NCBI GenBank assembly: GCA_918026815.1
Contig: CAKJVC010000014.1
Coordinates: forward strand, 124,001-188,000
Reading direction: 5' to 3'
DNA length: 64,000 nt
DNA from: Chalara sp. BL73
Taxonomy: Eukaryota; Ascomycota; Leotiomycetes; Helotiales
Shown: one piece after another, positions 8,189-15,232 of the stretch
Position numbering within the stretch: position 1 is the first letter of the stretch
Layout of the letters: each line of letters opens with the position of its first letter
Translations under genes and position numbers: made by a program
Notes under the pieces: generated by a model
The model's database searches: none
What the model was told of the DNA's origin: nothing
Seen by the model: the letters and a program-made list of their open reading frames with translations, nothing else

Positions 8189-8381
8189 TCAGTTACTGGA
8201 GTTATGCCCAGCCTCACCAATGGCGTAGACCGATTTCTCTGCGCTTAGTGGTTTCATCCACGGCTCATTCCTATCTTTTGCACGATCTTCCATTGCTCCA
8301 GCCCCCAAGAGTGCAAACCCATCCTGAAAGACTCTGCCAAGCCCGCCAGGCATCTTTCTGACGGGGTTTGCTTGCAGCTTG
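8189..8381 (-). pseudogene. Displaced 3' coding end of the enoyl-reductase-like gene
   Basis: Read on the minus strand across the 5 bp duplication GCTTG (8377-8381), this stretch continues the frame of the oxidoreductase at 14241-15232 exactly. It encodes about 61 residues before a TGA at 8189-8191. It contains the conserved C-terminal blocks of the ToxD-like/trans-enoyl-reductase branch of the medium-chain dehydrogenase superfamily (for example MPGGLGRVFQDGF and WMKPLSAEKSVYAI). It has no promoter or start of its own. It was separated from the rest of its gene by the copia insertion. Confidence 0.88.
8377..8381. repeat. Target-site duplication, left copy
   Basis: GCTTG directly precedes the 5' LTR and is repeated directly after the 3' LTR at 14236-14240. 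A 5 bp duplication is usual for Ty1/copia integration. It also marks the exact break in the enoyl-reductase frame. Confidence 0.93.
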
Positions 8382-8516
8382 TGTTGAAGGCCATATGTGT
8401 CATGTGAACTGTCACGTGATCCATGTACGGAATAGGTTTGGTCTCAGCCTACAATATGTATATATCACTCGTTTTCTCTGATTCTGTAGAAGAATCAAGC
8501 ACTTTTCACTTCAATA
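8382..8516 (+). repeat. 5' long terminal repeat (135 bp)
   Basis: It is identical base for base to 14101-14235. It starts TGTTGAAG and ends CTTCAATA, so the termini are an imperfect inverted repeat. A TATA-like stretch (TATGTATATATC) near 8456 probably directs element transcription. One GTACG core is present in each LTR. Confidence 0.95.
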
Positions 8517-8530
8517 GTTATGAGCCCGGC
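8517..8530 (+). other. Primer-binding site (initiator tRNA-Met anticodon region)
   Basis: GTTATGAGCCCGGC immediately follows the 5' LTR. Its complement contains GGGCTCATAAC, the anticodon stem-loop of fungal initiator tRNA-Met (anticodon CAU), rather than a tRNA 3' end. This fits half-tRNA priming as known for Drosophila copia. The complementarity is seen directly; the tRNA sequence is recalled, and the priming mode is inferred. Confidence 0.7.
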
Positions 8531-8653
8531 CCCCTTCCAAAACGCACAGAAAGCACAGAAAAAGACTTTTCAACTACATTCACATCTCGTACAATACTTA
8601 TAAATATCTTTATATATTTTTCTTCGTACATACAGAAAATCCATTAATTCACA

Positions 8654-11600
8654 ATGGCCCAAAAAGCACATACAGTTGTGCTGGGTAGTGACAAAGAATG
8701 GATTGAATGGCTGGAAATTGTGAAGTCCTACGCAATCAAAGCGGACATTTGGAAAAACGTGGATCCATCAGAAACCGTACGAAAAGATCTCAAAGCGCCA
8801 GTTCGCCCTACGCCTGCTTCCGTACGACAAAATGCAGAGTTGTATTCGACCTTGACGGCTGATGAAAAAGAGCAGTTAAGGATTTTGCAGCTCGAATTCG
8901 AATATGAAAGAAAGGTGTATGACAGGCAAAAAGCTGGTATGAACGATCTTCGTACGAAAATCCAGGAAACAATCAAGATCGACTACCTTCACTACACATA
9001 CAAATGCGATACTCCGTACGAGATGCTGGTGAACCTGAAAAACAGGTTTGCTCCTACGGATGCTGTACGAGAAAGGGAATTGATTCATCAATGGAAAGGA
9101 CTTGCTCAGACCCCGAAAGATCAAGACATGGAAGCATGGATTATGCAGTGGGAAACGTCGTACGACGAATGCGTCACAGCCAGTATTCCTGATGTCGCCG
9201 GAAACAGACCTTTGTACGACTTTGTTGCAGCTGTCTCCACTGTGGCTCCAGGATTCGCGGATGTGTGGAATGTAAAGTTGGCCGAAGGTTCAACGGAAAC
9301 TTTCAAAGGACTAGTACAAAACTTTCGCAACTATCGCAGGACAGTTTCTCAATATTATTCGACAACGTCGTACGGAGTGTTCACGACTCAAAAGCCAGAG
9401 CTTAGCGCTACAAAAGCGGACAAAAAGTCAAAAAAGAAAGAGCGCTTGCTTCCGTGGTGTGTTTGCAAACAGCGACATTATTTTGCCGATTGTCCATACT
9501 TCAATCTAGACCTTCGTACGAAAGACTGGAAATCAGACCAATCAATTGTGGCCAAAGCAGATAAAGCAAGACAGAACCCCAAGTACCAGACATCACTGTC
9601 AAAAATCAAAAATCCAGTTCGTACGAACAACGAAGTTACCCCAAGTGCATTTATTACTTGCTTCACGGCAGATTCATCAACAGATTTCATGCTTAAAAAC
9701 AGCATAATCTTGGACTCGGGAGCCACAATTCATGTATGCAACAATTTGTCCAAGTTCATTTCGTACGAAGACGCAAAAAACAAGGAAGTAGTGATTGCAG
9801 GAGCTAGTCAAGTGGAAATTACCGGATGGGGCACTGTAGAAATAGTTGCGAAATGCAAAACTCAACCAGACTCCGTACGAAGATTTGTTCTGACAAATGT
9901 TGCGTATGTACCAACATTCAGGACAAGTGTTGCTGCATTGCGAAAGTTTTTGCAACGGGATGTTCATTTTGATACAAAGCAAAGCTGCTTGACTTTCCAA
10001 AATCAGGTGTTTTGTGAACTTATCAATATTGCGGATCAATGGGTCATCGAATATAATCCAACTTCGTACGAATCAAAAAATGACATTTCAGCATTTCCAT
10101 CTTCATCACACAAACCCAAGCCAGTACGAAAAAGTACAATGACAGAATGGCATGCTCGAATGGGACATTTGTCTGAAGAAGCACTGTCTCACCTGCCGTA
10201 CGAAGCTGAGGGGGTGGAGTTTACAAACAAGGCATACAACAACAATTGCGAAGTCTGTCGTACGACAAATGCGAAAAAGTTAGTATCTCGCAGACCAACA
10301 AACAAGTCAACAATTCCGTTTGAGAGAGTTCATTTTGACTTGATTCCGATGAAAGAAAGCTCAGGAGGAGAACAGTTAATTTCGCATTTTCTTTGCGATG
10401 CAACTCGTACGAACTTTGTATATACAATTGCCAACAAACGAGAAGAATCAACGTTAGGCACAATTAAAGCATTTGCAGCACTCGTACGAACGCGTTGGAA
10501 CTGCACAATCAAGTTTTTTCACATGGACGGCGAAAGCTCTTTAGGAAAAGCATTTGATGCTTGGATTCTGGAACAAGGCATAACTGTGGAAAAGTCACCT
10601 CCGTACACAAAGGAGCAAAATGGTGCTATTGAACGATCAGGTCAAACACTCATTTTACGGGCAACAAGCCTTCGTACGAGTGCTGGTTTGCCAGAACACT
10701 TATGGCCAGAGTTTTTCAAAACTGCCGCTTATTTGCTGAATCGATCACCAACAAAGTCGCTGCACTGGTTGACGCCTTTGGAAAAACTACAAGCCTTCGT
10801 ACGAATTGTCAATCCATGTCCTGACTTAAGGCACCTTGTTTCGTACGGATGCAAAGCTTATCCACTGATCCAGAAAAGACTTAAACTGGATCGTACGGAT
10901 CCAAGAGCTGAAATTGGGTTCCTAGTAGGATATGAATCATCAAATATTTTTCGAGTATGGATTCCAAGACAAAAAAGAGTAATTGCAACTCGAGATGTAA
11001 CATTTGATGAATCACAGTTTTATGATTCTTCGTACGACTACAATACAATTCCGGTTACTACATTTCACACACTTCAAACGCTAAATGCAGAACCAGAACA
11101 AGAAGAAATATATAATTCAATTACAGTCGACACAGGAACTCAATATCAAGACGAAATTGACACGGAATCTTCAAAGTCTGATTTGAATGTTCAAGCTTCG
11201 TACGAAAACAACCGCCAGTTGATTACTCCTGAACAAACTCCGGAGACAGAAAATCAACCCGCAGACACAAATACAGATTCGTACGAATATGAAACATTCA
11301 AAGAAATTGGTCTAGACTTGAACGAATCCAATATTTTACCAAGCCGTACAAGAACGCAAAAACAAGGCTTTACACTTCAGCACAAGGCATATTTCACAGC
11401 ATTTCTAGCACAAAGCTCACAGAAAATTCATCGTACGACGCTCCCTCCAGCTCCAAAGAACTGGAAAGCTATGCTACAGCATTCACATGCTCGAGAGTTT
11501 CAAGCTGCAGCAGAAAAGGAATACACTGACTTGAAGAACCGAGACACTTTCAGACTCGTACGACAAGAAGAAACAGCTGAATACTATTGTATCCCGGTTA

Positions 11601-12706
11601 TGTGGGTGTTTACTTACAAATTCGACAAAGACGGGTTTTTAACAAAATACAAAGCTCGGCTAGTCGTACGAGGTGATTTAGAAAAAACTACAGCTGAAGA
11701 AGAAACATATGCTGCAACATTAGCTACCAGAGTGTTCAGGGCACTTATGGCTATTGCAGCTTATTTCGGTCTTGACATTTATCAATTTGATGCAATCAAT
11801 GCTTTCACTAACAGCTTGATTGACAAAATAGTGTTCGTACGAACTCCAGAAGGTTTTGAAGTCCCAGGATTCGTTTTACGTCTCGTACGAGCACTATACG
11901 GTCTTAGACGCTCTCCACTACTTTGGTTCAACGACCTTAAAGCAACTTTGCAAAGTCTAGGATTAACTCTAGTTCCAGAAGCACAATGCTTGTTCACAAA
12001 TCGCTATTTGATAGTGTTTTTCTATGTGGACGACTTTATTATTCTATGCCACCCAACGCACAAAAAACACTATCTGGAGTTTCGTACGAAGCTTATGCAA
12101 CAATATGAACTTCGGGAGATAAACAATTTTGAATGGTTTTTGGGTATACGTGTCGTACGAAATAAAGAACAAAGAAAAATCTGGCTTATTCAAGATTCTT
12201 ACATAGAAAACATAGCAACAAAGTACAATTTGATCGGCCAGTCAGCTCCAAAAACTCCATTGACAACATCTATTCTAAAGCCGTACGAAAGTCAAGCTAC
12301 GCCAGAAGAAATTCGGGCATATCAACAACGAGTAGGATCTTTAAATTATGCTGCAGTATCATGCAGGCCTGATATTTCACGAGCAGTGCAAAAACTGTCA
12401 GAATTCTTAACTAATCCTAGTCCACAACATTTGGACGCAGCAAACAAAGCAATTTTGTACTTGTACCAAACTCGTACGAAAGCAATCGAGTACAATTCCG
12501 ACTTGACTGAAGCAGTATTTCAAACAATGAGTGATGCAGCATTTGCAGATGACGTACGAACAAGACGCAGCACAGAAGGCTATTTATTTACGTTGTTTGG
12601 AGGGCCAATAGATTGGCGATGCACTAAACAGTCAACGGTGTCTACTTCAACAACTGAAGCTGAACTATTAGCATTGTCACATACTGTACGACAACTATAC
12701 TGGTAG
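8654..12706 (+). CDS. Copia Gag-Pol polyprotein, ended by a premature TAG in RNase H
   Basis: One frame of 1350 codons from the first ATG after the primer-binding site. In order: UBN2/Gag-like region (about residues 1-260); a short zinc-knuckle-like CxC-x3-H-x4-C (about 270-282); aspartic protease DSGA (about 354); GAG-pre-integrase (WHARMGH, about 498); integrase with the D...D...E triad (HFDLI about 561, HMDGE about 623, NGAIERS about 657); reverse transcriptase (YKARLVVRGD, YQFDAINAF, catalytic FYVDDF about 1125); and RNase H up to TEAELLALS. It stops at TAG 12704-12706 just after LYW, where copia elements normally continue. The same frame stays open to 13006. The stop probably disables the C-terminal RNase H, although readthrough cannot be excluded. 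Codons overlapping the GTACGA motif give a visible excess of VR, RT and SYE/SYD dipeptides. Confidence 0.95.
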   Translation: MAQKAHTVVLGSDKEWIEWLEIVKSYAIKADIWKNVDPSETVRKDLKAPVRPTPASVRQNAELYSTLTADEKEQLRILQLEFEYERKVYDRQKAGMNDLRTKIQETIKIDYLHYTYKCDTPYEMLVNLKNRFAPTDAVRERELIHQWKGLAQTPKDQDMEAWIMQWETSYDECVTASIPDVAGNRPLYDFVAAVSTVAPGFADVWNVKLAEGSTETFKGLVQNFRNYRRTVSQYYSTTSYGVFTTQKPELSATKADKKSKKKERLLPWCVCKQRHYFADCPYFNLDLRTKDWKSDQSIVAKADKARQNPKYQTSLSKIKNPVRTNNEVTPSAFITCFTADSSTDFMLKNSIILDSGATIHVCNNLSKFISYEDAKNKEVVIAGASQVEITGWGTVEIVAKCKTQPDSVRRFVLTNVAYVPTFRTSVAALRKFLQRDVHFDTKQSCLTFQNQVFCELINIADQWVIEYNPTSYESKNDISAFPSSSHKPKPVRKSTMTEWHARMGHLSEEALSHLPYEAEGVEFTNKAYNNNCEVCRTTNAKKLVSRRPTNKSTIPFERVHFDLIPMKESSGGEQLISHFLCDATRTNFVYTIANKREESTLGTIKAFAALVRTRWNCTIKFFHMDGESSLGKAFDAWILEQGITVEKSPPYTKEQNGAIERSGQTLILRATSLRTSAGLPEHLWPEFFKTAAYLLNRSPTKSLHWLTPLEKLQAFVRIVNPCPDLRHLVSYGCKAYPLIQKRLKLDRTDPRAEIGFLVGYESSNIFRVWIPRQKRVIATRDVTFDESQFYDSSYDYNTIPVTTFHTLQTLNAEPEQEEIYNSITVDTGTQYQDEIDTESSKSDLNVQASYENNRQLITPEQTPETENQPADTNTDSYEYETFKEIGLDLNESNILPSRTRTQKQGFTLQHKAYFTAFLAQSSQKIHRTTLPPAPKNWKAMLQHSHAREFQAAAEKEYTDLKNRDTFRLVRQEETAEYYCIPVMWVFTYKFDKDGFLTKYKARLVVRGDLEKTTAEEETYAATLATRVFRALMAIAAYFGLDIYQFDAINAFTNSLIDKIVFVRTPEGFEVPGFVLRLVRALYGLRRSPLLWFNDLKATLQSLGLTLVPEAQCLFTNRYLIVFFYVDDFIILCHPTHKKHYLEFRTKLMQQYELREINNFEWFLGIRVVRNKEQRKIWLIQDSYIENIATKYNLIGQSAPKTPLTTSILKPYESQATPEEIRAYQQRVGSLNYAAVSCRPDISRAVQKLSEFLTNPSPQHLDAANKAILYLYQTRTKAIEYNSDLTEAVFQTMSDAAFADDVRTRRSTEGYLFTLFGGPIDWRCTKQSTVSTSTTEAELLALSHTVRQLYW

Positions 12707-13006
12707 CAACGATTCTTTGCAGCTATTAAGTTTAACTTGAAGCAAGAACACCAGGTATATTGTGACAATATGCAAACCGTACGATTAGTGGTTCAAGAAA
12801 CACCAAAACTTGTCACTAAGCTGAAACATGTAGACATACATAATCATTGGTTGCGACAAGAAGTTGAGAATGGAAATCTCAAAGTTGAATGGATTCGTAC
12901 GACAGACATGAAAGCAGATGGATTTACTAAAGCATTAACTCGCCAGAAGCACGAACACTTCGTACGACAACTCAACTTGGTGGAGTTGCAAAAGGAACAA
13001 AACTAG
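12707..13006 (+). pseudogene. C-terminal RNase H remainder of copia Pol, beyond the in-frame TAG
   Basis: The frame is the same as the polyprotein (12737 and 8654 are congruent modulo 3). It includes the conserved copia endings: a CDN motif (VYCDNMQTVRL), then KHVDIHNHWLR and the terminal TDMKADGFTKAL. Only one codon separates it from the upstream domain: TGG-TAG-CAA, where related proteins have two tryptophans (YWW). A TGG to TAG change is the simplest explanation. Confidence 0.85.
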
Positions 13007-13228
13007 GCTTATGCAAACAATCATTTTATGTGTTGCTTTTTATGTATTGAGCTTTAGTGTATTGTCTTTTGCTTCTTGGTTTCGCTTTGCAGCTACTGAT
13101 CTCAAGCACCACGTAACGGTGAAGCAACAGCTTGAGTGCCACTTGACAGTCGACGTTTAAGCCCGTACGACACAGCCAGACACAGCCAGACAATTGTGCT
13201 TGCAAACATAAAAAAGACTCGTACGAAC

Positions 13229-13714
13229 CTAAAGAATTATAGGGTTCCCTCTGTCCCCTGGCGGTGGCAGCGGCAATGGTCGCCTACGATCGCCTTCAGG
13301 TTCACCGTCGCCAATGAACCTTCCAGCATCATCCGGCGGCGGACCAGGTACACAACGTGCAGCATGGTCACGCCACTTGCAATTGCCGCAGGCATTCCCA
13401 AAATGTCCCCACACCGTACGACATTCAGGAAATGGGCGGAGCCCACGGCGTTGGCATTCAGAACAGCCATCTTGGATGACAACACCAGCCCGTTGTATAA
13501 GGATAGCATTGATGTAGGACGGCCGATGAGTAGCCACCTGCTGAGGTGTAATGGCTCCTCGTACGAAGAGCACATTACGTCCTGGCATTGCCAAGACTGC
13601 TTGTTGCAGGTTGTTGTGGACCAGCGGTGCCAATTGCTGGCCAGCCACGTAAAGGACAGAGTGACCCTGTCCGTTGGCGTTGGCGTTGGCGGCGGCGACA
13701 ACGGCATTGTACAA
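13229..13714 (-). CDS. Antisense open frame in the copia 3' region, DUF3716-like cysteine motif
   Basis: A minus-strand frame of about 160 residues lies between pol and the 3' LTR. Its C-terminal half contains CSECQRRG, RPFPEC, then GNACGNCKW and a final C. This spacing resembles the fungal DUF3716 zinc-ribbon-like domain, a resemblance from memory not tested by search. The end is proline- and arginine-rich. There is no ATG at the 5' end of the open frame, so it probably continues upstream by splicing. On the minus strand a Q-codon repeat ends in GTAAGT near 13912, the next exon begins after TATAG near 13838, and a second GTAAGT follows near 13780. The exact exon structure is unresolved. It could be a captured host gene or an element-encoded antisense accessory gene. 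Confidence 0.5.
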   Translation of the reverse strand: MYNAVVAAANANANGQGHSVLYVAGQQLAPLVHNNLQQAVLAMPGRNVLFVRGAITPQQVATHRPSYINAILIQRAGVVIQDGCSECQRRGLRPFPECRTVWGHFGNACGNCKWRDHAARCVPGPPPDDAGRFIGDGEPEGDRRRPLPLPPPGDRGNPIIL

Positions 13715-13780
13715 AACAAGAGCCCTATCACCGTACGAACTCCAATCAGCTACAGTTTCGTACGATGACCACTACTTACA

Positions 13781-13831
13781 TGATGATGGTGGTGATGGTG
13801 GTAGTGGTGGTGGTGGTGCTGCTGCTGCTGT
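13781..13831. repeat. GGT/GCT trinucleotide microsatellite
   Basis: An imperfect GGT/GAT run grades into GCT repeats. On the minus strand it reads as CAG then CAC/CAT codons (Q then H in one frame). It is flanked on that strand by a TATAG acceptor and a GTAAGT donor, so it may be an exon of the antisense gene. Confidence 0.8.
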
Positions 13832-13913
13832 TCTATAACAAAAGTTAGCCATTGGAAACAACATCGTACGAAGCTACACAGTTTTATTATTGCACAATCA
13901 AAAGAATACTTAC

Positions 13914-13943
13914 GTTGTTGCTGTTGCTGTTGCTGCTGTTGTT
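13914..13943. repeat. TTG/CTG trinucleotide microsatellite
   Basis: On the minus strand it reads CAA/CAG codons and is followed directly by GTAAGT. Splicing to the microsatellite at 13781-13831 would join Q codons in phase, which favours an exon over a simple repeat. Confidence 0.75.
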
Positions 13944-14091
13944 CAAGGAAGAAAAGAAAAAAAAGGGAAATTCAGTAAATACATTGTGGGAAAAGCTAGG
14001 AGATTCCCAAATCAGGAAGGGACCTCATCAGGAAAGCACCTGGTTACACATGGCTTTCGTACGAAGCGAGGCTTGGCAGGAGCACAAACCT

Positions 14092-14098
14092 AAGGGGG
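14092..14098 (+). other. Polypurine tract of the copia element
   Basis: AAGGGGG ends two bases before the 3' LTR, the expected place for the plus-strand primer in reverse transcription. Confidence 0.65.
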
Positions 14099-14100
14099 TG

Positions 14101-14235
14101 TGTTGAAGGCCATATGTGTCATGTGAACTGTCACGTGATCCATGTACGGAATAGGTTTGGTCTCAGCCTACAATATGTATATATCACTCGTTTTCTCTGA
14201 TTCTGTAGAAGAATCAAGCACTTTTCACTTCAATA
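14101..14235 (+). repeat. 3' long terminal repeat (135 bp)
   Basis: Identical to 8382-8516. On the minus strand its last bases supply the codons LLK and the TGA (14225-14227) that now terminate the interrupted oxidoreductase frame. Confidence 0.95.
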
Positions 14236-15232
14236 GCTTGCCACCTTTGGATAACCACTTATAGAAAGAAACCGCAAATCTGCGAGCACCGGAATCCGCC
14301 TGAACGACAAGATTCTGGTACTGAATCTCGACTCCAAGACCCTCCCAGACTGCCCCATAGATCGGCTCCACATCTGGAAGCAGGCCTTCAGAATCCCAGG
14401 CACCTCCTTCTTTGGACCTTACGATGGCTATCTTTCCACCATGTTGAAGCAAACTAATTATTCTCTTGACAGTAGAACCTTCCGAGATGCAATCGAACGC
14501 GTAATGGAATCCTGCACCTCCAGTTAATTGCAGAGCTTGTTGCTGCCATTCGCTGTCTCTATAGTCTACAAGGTCATTGTAGAAATAAGGCGCGTTCCGC
14601 AATAAAGAGAACCGCGCTTTGCTTGCAGAACCAATGAGCTTGATTGGACGACCGCTAGCCTCGGAGAATCGCCGAATAAGCTGAGCAGCATAAAGTGCGA
14701 CACTTGTGGATGCGCCATATATGAAAAAGTTTAATAACTCGCCTTCTTCTAAATTTAATACCGTAGAGCTACCATCCTTCACTTCTGAGGTGGATTCCCA
14801 CTCAAATGGAGCCGGCAATCGCAGGCGGTAGAAAAGTGCTTGAGCCGCGGTCAGCGCGCACAAGCTCACGGTAGCTGCCTGCGCGAACGAAACAGGACCG
14901 GAAATCTCCCATAGAAGGTCTGCAGGACATATCAAGTATTCTGCAAAAGCACCAGGCCGATCGTTTGAGCTACAAGCCCCTTGCAGGAACCCAGCGACCC
15001 TGTGGTCCGGCTTGAAGTTGACGCCCCCTCCATCTGCAACCACAGTGCCAGCAAAATCGCTACCAACAATCCTCCCAGTCTCCCCCAGAGGGTTGAATAC
15101 GTAAAGAGCGTCTACGGGGTTGAGAGCGATCGCCTGTACTCTGATAAGCACCTCACCATGCGCTGGTTTTGGTATATCGACTTCCTGAACCGATGCTGTT
15201 CTTGTTTGTGCGTCGAGTACTAGTGCCTTCAT
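14225..15232 (-). pseudogene. ToxD-like/trans-enoyl-reductase-like oxidoreductase, truncated by copia insertion
   Basis: An MDR-superfamily NADPH-dependent oxidoreductase of the fungal ToxD/trans-ER branch (no zinc ligands seen). These act in the cytosol on quinones or as enoyl reductases beside polyketide synthases; no synthase is in the window. It is an uninterrupted frame of 335 residues. The GroES-like N-terminus has PKPAHGEVLIRVQAIALNPVD and the block GRIVGSDFAGTVV; the nucleotide-binding Rossmann region starts near FIYGASTSVALYAAQL. Up to GGKL the protein matches the family, then three LTR-encoded residues and a stop replace the last 61 residues, which now lie at 8189-8381. The loss removes the conserved C-terminal EK-V-Y region, so the product is probably non-functional. 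The start ATG is at 15230-15232. Confidence 0.88.
14236..14240. repeat. Target-site duplication, right copy
   Basis: GCTTG directly after the 3' LTR, matching 8377-8381. Confidence 0.93.

Follow-up and report, generated by a model that had tools for sequence, protein, structure and literature searches.

In a window of 64,000 nucleotides from the ascomycete Chalara sp. BL73 (contig CAKJVC010000014.1, positions 124,001 to 188,000 of the forward strand; "the window" denotes this whole stretch), a Ty1/copia long terminal repeat (LTR) retrotransposon at 8382-14235 carries, throughout its internal region, a lattice of evenly spaced copies of the palindromic octamer TCGTACGA that is independent of reading frame. 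A preliminary description of this DNA had treated the lattice as a property of this one copia element; that view has to be given up, as the lattice is also present in unrelated DNA transposons of this genome, of the Fot1/pogo kind. We consider it an even chance that the lattice is an array of putative binding sites for a sequence-specific, dimeric double-strand DNA-binding protein acting on transposon chromatin.

The lattice in the copia element

The lattice extends from 8775 to 14064, without assignment to a strand, and comprises 47 GTACG cores, of which 44 read GTACGA and 29 are perfect TCGTACGA, separated by gaps of 27-203 bp (mean 115). These are exactly the counts that the preliminary description gave between 8777 and 14064, and its statement that the octamer is found nowhere else in the 64 kb was also reproduced: the rest of the window contains 0 TCGTACGA, 23 GTACG and 5 GTACGA. 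The 39 cores that it assigned to the pol frame, with 8 downstream, correspond to 36 in the pol open reading frame (ORF) before its stop, 3 beyond the stop in the same frame and 8 further downstream; those before the stop occupy all three codon phases (14/12/10), as had been noted. The region covered includes gag, integrase, reverse transcriptase, the tail and an antisense ORF. TCGTACGA is absent from both LTRs, and the 5' untranslated region (UTR) contains two imperfect copies, one with one mismatch and one with two.

When one mismatch is allowed and GTAC is required to be kept, there are 45 sites over the 5.6 kb of the copia internal region (8.1/kb) and 4 over the 58 kb of the window outside the element (0.07/kb). 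From base composition, 0.08 TCGTACGA would be expected in the whole element, compared with the 29 observed. Permuting synonymous codons inside pol, so that both the protein and the codon usage are kept, gave a mean of 0.73 TCGTACGA and a maximum of 5 in 2000 shuffles, compared with 22 observed. This codon-preserving shuffle, a check that the preliminary description had proposed, shows that chance fails to give the counts seen and bears out the earlier view that the motif is maintained at the nucleotide level, whatever the frame. Spacing is also far from random: of the 46 gaps, only one is shorter than 44 bp (14.3 expected) and none is longer than 203 bp (7.9 expected), and not one of 20,000 random site sets was as even on either gap count. 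No helical phasing of these gaps was seen at 10, 10.5 or 11 bp.

The same motif in other transposons of the genome

A search of the genome outside the element, also proposed at the outset, found motif clusters in other transposons. In the whole genome (58.7 Mb), TCGTACGA occurs 725 times and the reversed sequence 1294 times. Further clusters came from motif-pair searches, which returned 33 and 40 forward matches, compared with 11 and 21, respectively, for the reversed control, and the clusters examined are a subset of those in the genome. Such searches are weak by themselves and the case therefore rests on per-element counts, in which two sites of each element are not independent evidence because the elements were located by motif pairs.

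Five Fot1/pogo DNA transposons (L035, two elements in L045, L046 and L047) carry 11-14 sites in 1.8-1.9 kb each, i.e. 5.8-7.9 sites/kb with one mismatch allowed. A DDE_1 domain was found in all the copies tested (L035 and both L045 elements), and L046 and L047 align to the L035 and L045 copies at 72-85%. Codon shuffles of four Fot1 frames gave means far below the observed numbers of TCGTACGA (9 observed with a mean of 0.23, 6 with 0.50, 7 with 0.18 and 4 with 0.17). The spacing is under-dispersed in four of the five copies; among these four, L035 and the first L045 element are 98.6% identical. Ten sites in 1.6 kb are found in L231, probably a pogo-like element, with a weak HTH_Tnp_Tc5 match (E 0.005). 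Integrase-like fragments probably share the lattice: L042 (rva_4 integrase core) has 4 sites in 0.42 kb and L232 (Clr5) 4 sites in 0.6 kb, and the two are perhaps parts of one integrase-like kind. For the Tc1-type element L043, 4 sites in 1.6 kb point weakly to the same lattice; another Tc1-type element, L044, has 1.4 sites/kb. In the hit regions L233 and L234 no transposon was recognised. In the lattice-bearing elements a site recurs about every 115 to 150 bases, whatever is encoded.

Turnover, mutation and symmetry of the sites

Between two Fot1 copies that are 74% identical, five of nine perfect sites are kept exactly, where about 0.8 would be expected from the identity; other sites have been lost, and two perfect ones have arisen at new places. 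In L036, a degraded copia relative (70% identical), TCGTACGA is present at two places that lack it in the window element and missing from several that have it there. Alignment of relatives, suggested in the preliminary description, thus shows a density that is kept while many positions move.

A second full-length copia copy, L006 (G000:C86:663992-669868), is 94.5% identical to that of the window and has many stops in frame. The decay of this copy is of the kind produced by repeat-induced point mutation (RIP-like), 266 of the 300 differences being C>T or G>A, with a leaning towards CpA. CpGs within the motif changed in 6 of 168 cases and other CpGs in 9 of 300, and no protection footprint was found near the motifs in L006, where mutation is not rarer. 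As motif CpGs decay like others, local shielding is not needed to explain the persistence of the motif; and as the motif does not shield the DNA under mutation, we infer that selection acting on copies that transpose maintains it.

Imperfect copies in the copia element show 15 left-only and 3 right-only changes (p = 0.008), or 5 right-only changes when the two 5' UTR copies are included (p = 0.04). Among 61 Fot1 sites, which are partly non-independent, there are 9 left and 15 right changes. The directionality proposed in the preliminary description is therefore real as a left-half degeneracy of the copia element but does not extend to Fot1, and two transposon classes have the perfect dyad and conserve both its halves.

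Relatives in other species

In proteins, the three phases of TCGTACGA can be read as [FLIV]VR, RT[TKNSRIM] or [SPTA]Y[DE]. P0003, a copia protein of 1497 amino acids encoded on a Joint Genome Institute (JGI) contig and 43% identical to that of the window by BLASTP (45% in the alignment), has 14 VR dipeptides (5.0 expected) and 20 RT dipeptides (7.8 expected); the window element has 16 (4.7 expected) and 17 (7.2 expected), respectively. Full lattice peptides number 29 in the window element, 32 in P0003 and 8-11 in P0001, P0002, P0004 and P0005; P0001 and P0002 are closer by identity than P0003 and show no VR or RT excess. P0003, which groups with the window element in the tree (support 0.975), shares 22 of the 49 dipeptide places of the latter, its remaining ones being elsewhere. 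For Fot1, the sample consisted of the 120 homologs listed out of 2725, among which the 31 nearest average 8.7 lattice peptides and the other 89 average 2.1. In one clade (support 1.0), which includes P0020 of Hymenoscyphus albidus, 27 of 31 leaves (query included) have an observed/expected ratio of at least 1.4. The Fot1 proteins listed for Fusarium oxysporum, Drechslerella and Verticillium have ratios of 0.6-0.8, and high scorers outside the clade are scattered (P0129, P0091, P0048, P0083 and P0094). From these peptide signatures we infer that P0003 and the Fot1 clade carry the lattice too.

Residues lying wholly inside lattice sites match the lattice-free P0001 at 26 of 70 positions, compared with 611 of 1235 elsewhere (Fisher p 0.049), and likewise match P0002, P0004, P0005, P0006 and P0007 less, these comparisons not being independent; they match P0003 more (0.53 versus 0.45). 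This gives modest support to the idea that the nucleotide motif may override protein sequence, and points weakly to an extra divergence of Pol at lattice residues.

In IMG/VR, no DNA related to P0003 or to Fot1 was found. Motif-pair scans of the same collection returned 85 and 100 stretches; the densest of the 179 loci examined, the IMG/VR contigs L174 (12 copies in steps of about 65 bp) and L056 (9 copies, 35/70 bp), are regular arrays unlike the lattice described here; their TCGTACGA copies probably lie inside tandem or CRISPR-like repeats and are unrelated to it.

Organisation of the retrotransposon and its antisense gene

The element that hosts the lattice is a Ty1/copia LTR retrotransposon, with direct and identical LTRs of 135 bp (8382..8516 and 14101..14235, both on the plus strand), a short target-site duplication, GCTTG (8377..8381 and 14236-14240), and an integrase (rve, residues 554-652) that precedes the reverse transcriptase (RVT_2, residues 965-1203), which is the copia order. 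The probable primer-binding site, GTTATGAGCCC, is read next to the 5' LTR (8517..8527, plus strand) and presumably corresponds to the complement of the anticodon arm of tRNA-iMet, which it resembles; Drosophila copia uses a half-tRNA primer. The Gag-Pol frame (8654..12706, plus strand) encodes Pol_BBD, gag_pre-integrs, rve, SH3_retrovirus and RVT_2 and stops inside RNase H, and the same frame, open past this stop (12707..13006, plus strand), resembles the rest of RNase H. About 30 places in the genome match the LTR alone at 86-99% identity (e.g. L010-L018) and are probably solo LTRs or relics of the family. At L037 (3930-4687), a copia fragment is present as two head-to-head pieces about 10-20 bp apart, matching on both strands, which is a local inverted duplication.

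On the minus strand, an ORF at 13229-13714, with 2 lattice cores inside (13416 and 13561), matches DUF3716 (E 4.9e-13). When it is compared with the homologous fragment L038, the ratio of non-synonymous to synonymous substitution rates (dN/dS) is 0.11 over 98 codons, and this antisense frame is thus selected as a protein. Database searching yielded 102 relatives, most of them from short environmental contigs. In an alignment of 59 sequences (58 relatives and that of the window), each of six cysteines is present in at least 56, the usual spacing being C-X2-C-X10-12-C-X10-C-X2-C-X8-C. The Zn2Cys6 pattern is CX2CX6CX5-12CX2CX6-8C, and the DUF3716 protein fails it, the second spacer being mostly 10-12 and not 6; the Zn_clus profile matches one of the 59 members (E 4.9). 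An AlphaFold2 model of the protein is fair to good (mean predicted local distance difference test score of 85), and a fold search with it among solved structures gave no significant match, the single line returned by Foldseek being a HAP1-DNA complex (E 7.5). We consider the DUF3716 protein a candidate reader of the lattice, possibly as a zinc protein that binds DNA.

Comparison with described systems

Arrays of protein-binding sites are known from the gypsy element of Drosophila, in which about a dozen Su(Hw) sites occupy one short 5' non-coding stretch of a single element family; the lattice would resemble this array as a set of sites for a host protein within a retrotransposon, but spans the whole coding region. 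The DNA uptake sequences of Neisseria and Haemophilus are short frame-independent motifs, dense through genes and genome-wide, whereas the lattice is confined to transposons. In the literature searched, which left out most subscription journals, we found neither a description of such a lattice nor DUF3716 by name; the parts consulted of PMC8214302 contain nothing on the motif.

The nearest described system appears to be that of the VANC motif arrays of Arabidopsis VANDAL transposons, the likeness being one of working and no membership being claimed. According to the parts consulted of the two papers concerned, the motif is YAGTATTAY and its density matters for recognition and localisation (PMC5735166, PMC10398659), and an unrelated transposon, AT9TSD1, has VANC6 motifs as well (PMC5735166). 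The lattice is similar in being a short motif at high density in transposons relative to the rest of the window. As described in the same parts, however, VANC21 motifs are mainly non-coding, have one orientation and multiply with tandem repeats (PMC5735166, PMC10398659), whereas the lattice is palindromic, dispersed in coding DNA (36 of the 47 cores lie in pol before the stop) and in all frames, turns over by substitution, and occurs in both LTR and DNA transposons. A VANC-type system further has a protein, encoded by the transposon, that binds the motif and strips off silencing marks, a part for which DUF3716 is a candidate here. TCGTACGA is also contained in a 19-bp element of the Pfcyp51 promoter of Pseudocercospora fijiensis, the repeat number of which tracks reduced fungicide sensitivity in the part consulted of PMC6637983; unlike the lattice, this element belongs to the promoter of a single host gene. 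A link to CYP51 or to a sterol regulator was rejected here, TCGTACGA being absent from the 2-kb stretches examined at the two CYP51-like genes of this genome. Upstream of one of these genes lies a stretch of CGAA repeats that resembles the FgSR element (PMC6420630, consulted in part). Together with the RIP-like decay, Fot1 and DUF3716, this stretch suggests that the host is a filamentous ascomycete.

Proposed explanation and alternatives

We propose that a protein would bind TCGTACGA as a symmetric dimer with the half-site TCGT/ACGA. The presence of a perfect dyad in DNA transposons and in a retrotransposon, in any frame and also outside genes, makes a dimeric double-strand DNA-binding site the best reading, and among the roles listed in the preliminary description, that of an array of sites bound by a factor of the host or of the element fits best. 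Selection on transposing copies would hold consecutive copia sites within about 200 bp of each other, so that roughly each nucleosome-sized stretch would receive at least one site, and the bounded spacing suggests that this coverage matters. As the Ty1/copia, Fot1/pogo and probably integrase-like kinds use the same motif, the factor would act in trans and would be either a protein of the host or the product of one transposon, exploited by the others. As it is the transposons that bear the cost of the sites, they are probably also the ones that gain, through access, through expression or by escaping silencing. Most likely the factor would act like VANC proteins on their arrays, holding the chromatin of transposons open or competent for expression in the face of host silencing.

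Several observations weigh against this explanation. A dense lattice is missing from three further copia elements, L048, L049 and part of L040 (0, 0.3 and 1.25 sites/kb, respectively), and the frames of two of them are reported free of stops. The lattice of L006 did not keep that copy from RIP-like mutation, and the spacing in the Fot1 copy L046 is not even, with a gap of 463 bp. The strand asymmetry of imperfect copies, seen in copia only, is unexpected for a symmetric dimer, and beyond this genome the lattice has been read from proteins and not from DNA.

A special case of the proposed explanation, which we consider unlikely, is that the factor is the element's own DUF3716 protein, which would bind TCGTACGA as a dimer, activating or protecting the element, Fot1 having evolved the same sites to exploit this protein. 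Its profile match, low dN/dS and six near-invariant cysteines, with a spacing that recalls Zn2Cys6, are in favour of this, as are the non-significant HAP1-DNA line and the precedent of VANC6 motifs in an unrelated transposon (PMC5735166); but lattice-bearing Fot1 elements are without DUF3716, the spacers are longer than those of Zn2Cys6, Zn_clus recovers a single member, and there is no significant fold match. Somewhat less probable still is that the sites serve the host, either through a host protein that marks or silences transposons or by aiding pairing, replication or insulation of copies. Sharing by unrelated transposons fits a host reader and almost the whole internal region is covered by sites, but harmful sites should be purged, yet they appear to be gained as well as lost, and other copia elements of the genome have no lattice.

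To a role of the motif as RNA (UCGUACGA), through protein binding, self-pairing, export, stability or escape of transcripts from RNA silencing, we attach a similarly low probability. The strand asymmetry in copia and the location of sites in transcribed parts, with none in the LTRs, are consistent with it, but the asymmetry is not seen in Fot1 copies and a single-strand reader needs no perfect dyad. The packaging by self-complementary RNA suggested in the preliminary description fits poorly, as DNA transposons package no RNA and yet carry the motif. Finally, it is very improbable that the motif is a functionless product of mutation or insertion (RIP, transposon footprints or biased repair). 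RIP-like decay does occur in this host and the centre of TCGTACGA is TA, the dinucleotide that pogo elements use for insertion; but the codon shuffles of the pol and Fot1 frames speak against such an origin, RIP-like changes destroy the motif, and the sites align, by eye, with homologous proteins without insertions. TCGTACGA as a pogo landing site was also rejected, two Fot1 insertion sites, read by eye, being TA in other contexts.

Significance

On the proposed binding-site explanation, we put forward, tentatively and with more doubt than conviction, a shared cis-acting transposon code: one palindromic octamer, set at nucleosome-scale intervals through coding DNA and kept by convergent selection in an LTR retrotransposon, pogo-type elements and one or more further classes, across several fungal species, would be read by one trans-acting protein (possibly DUF3716) that decides which transposons escape silencing. 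If transposon classes did converge on one frame-independent motif, one factor acting within the nucleus of the host would influence what becomes of them all, and the sites would be selected strongly enough to move protein residues. This would represent a second DNA-motif code in transposons, independent of the plant VANC system, and a single 8-bp probe would provide a testable handle on the contest between fungal transposons and host silencing.

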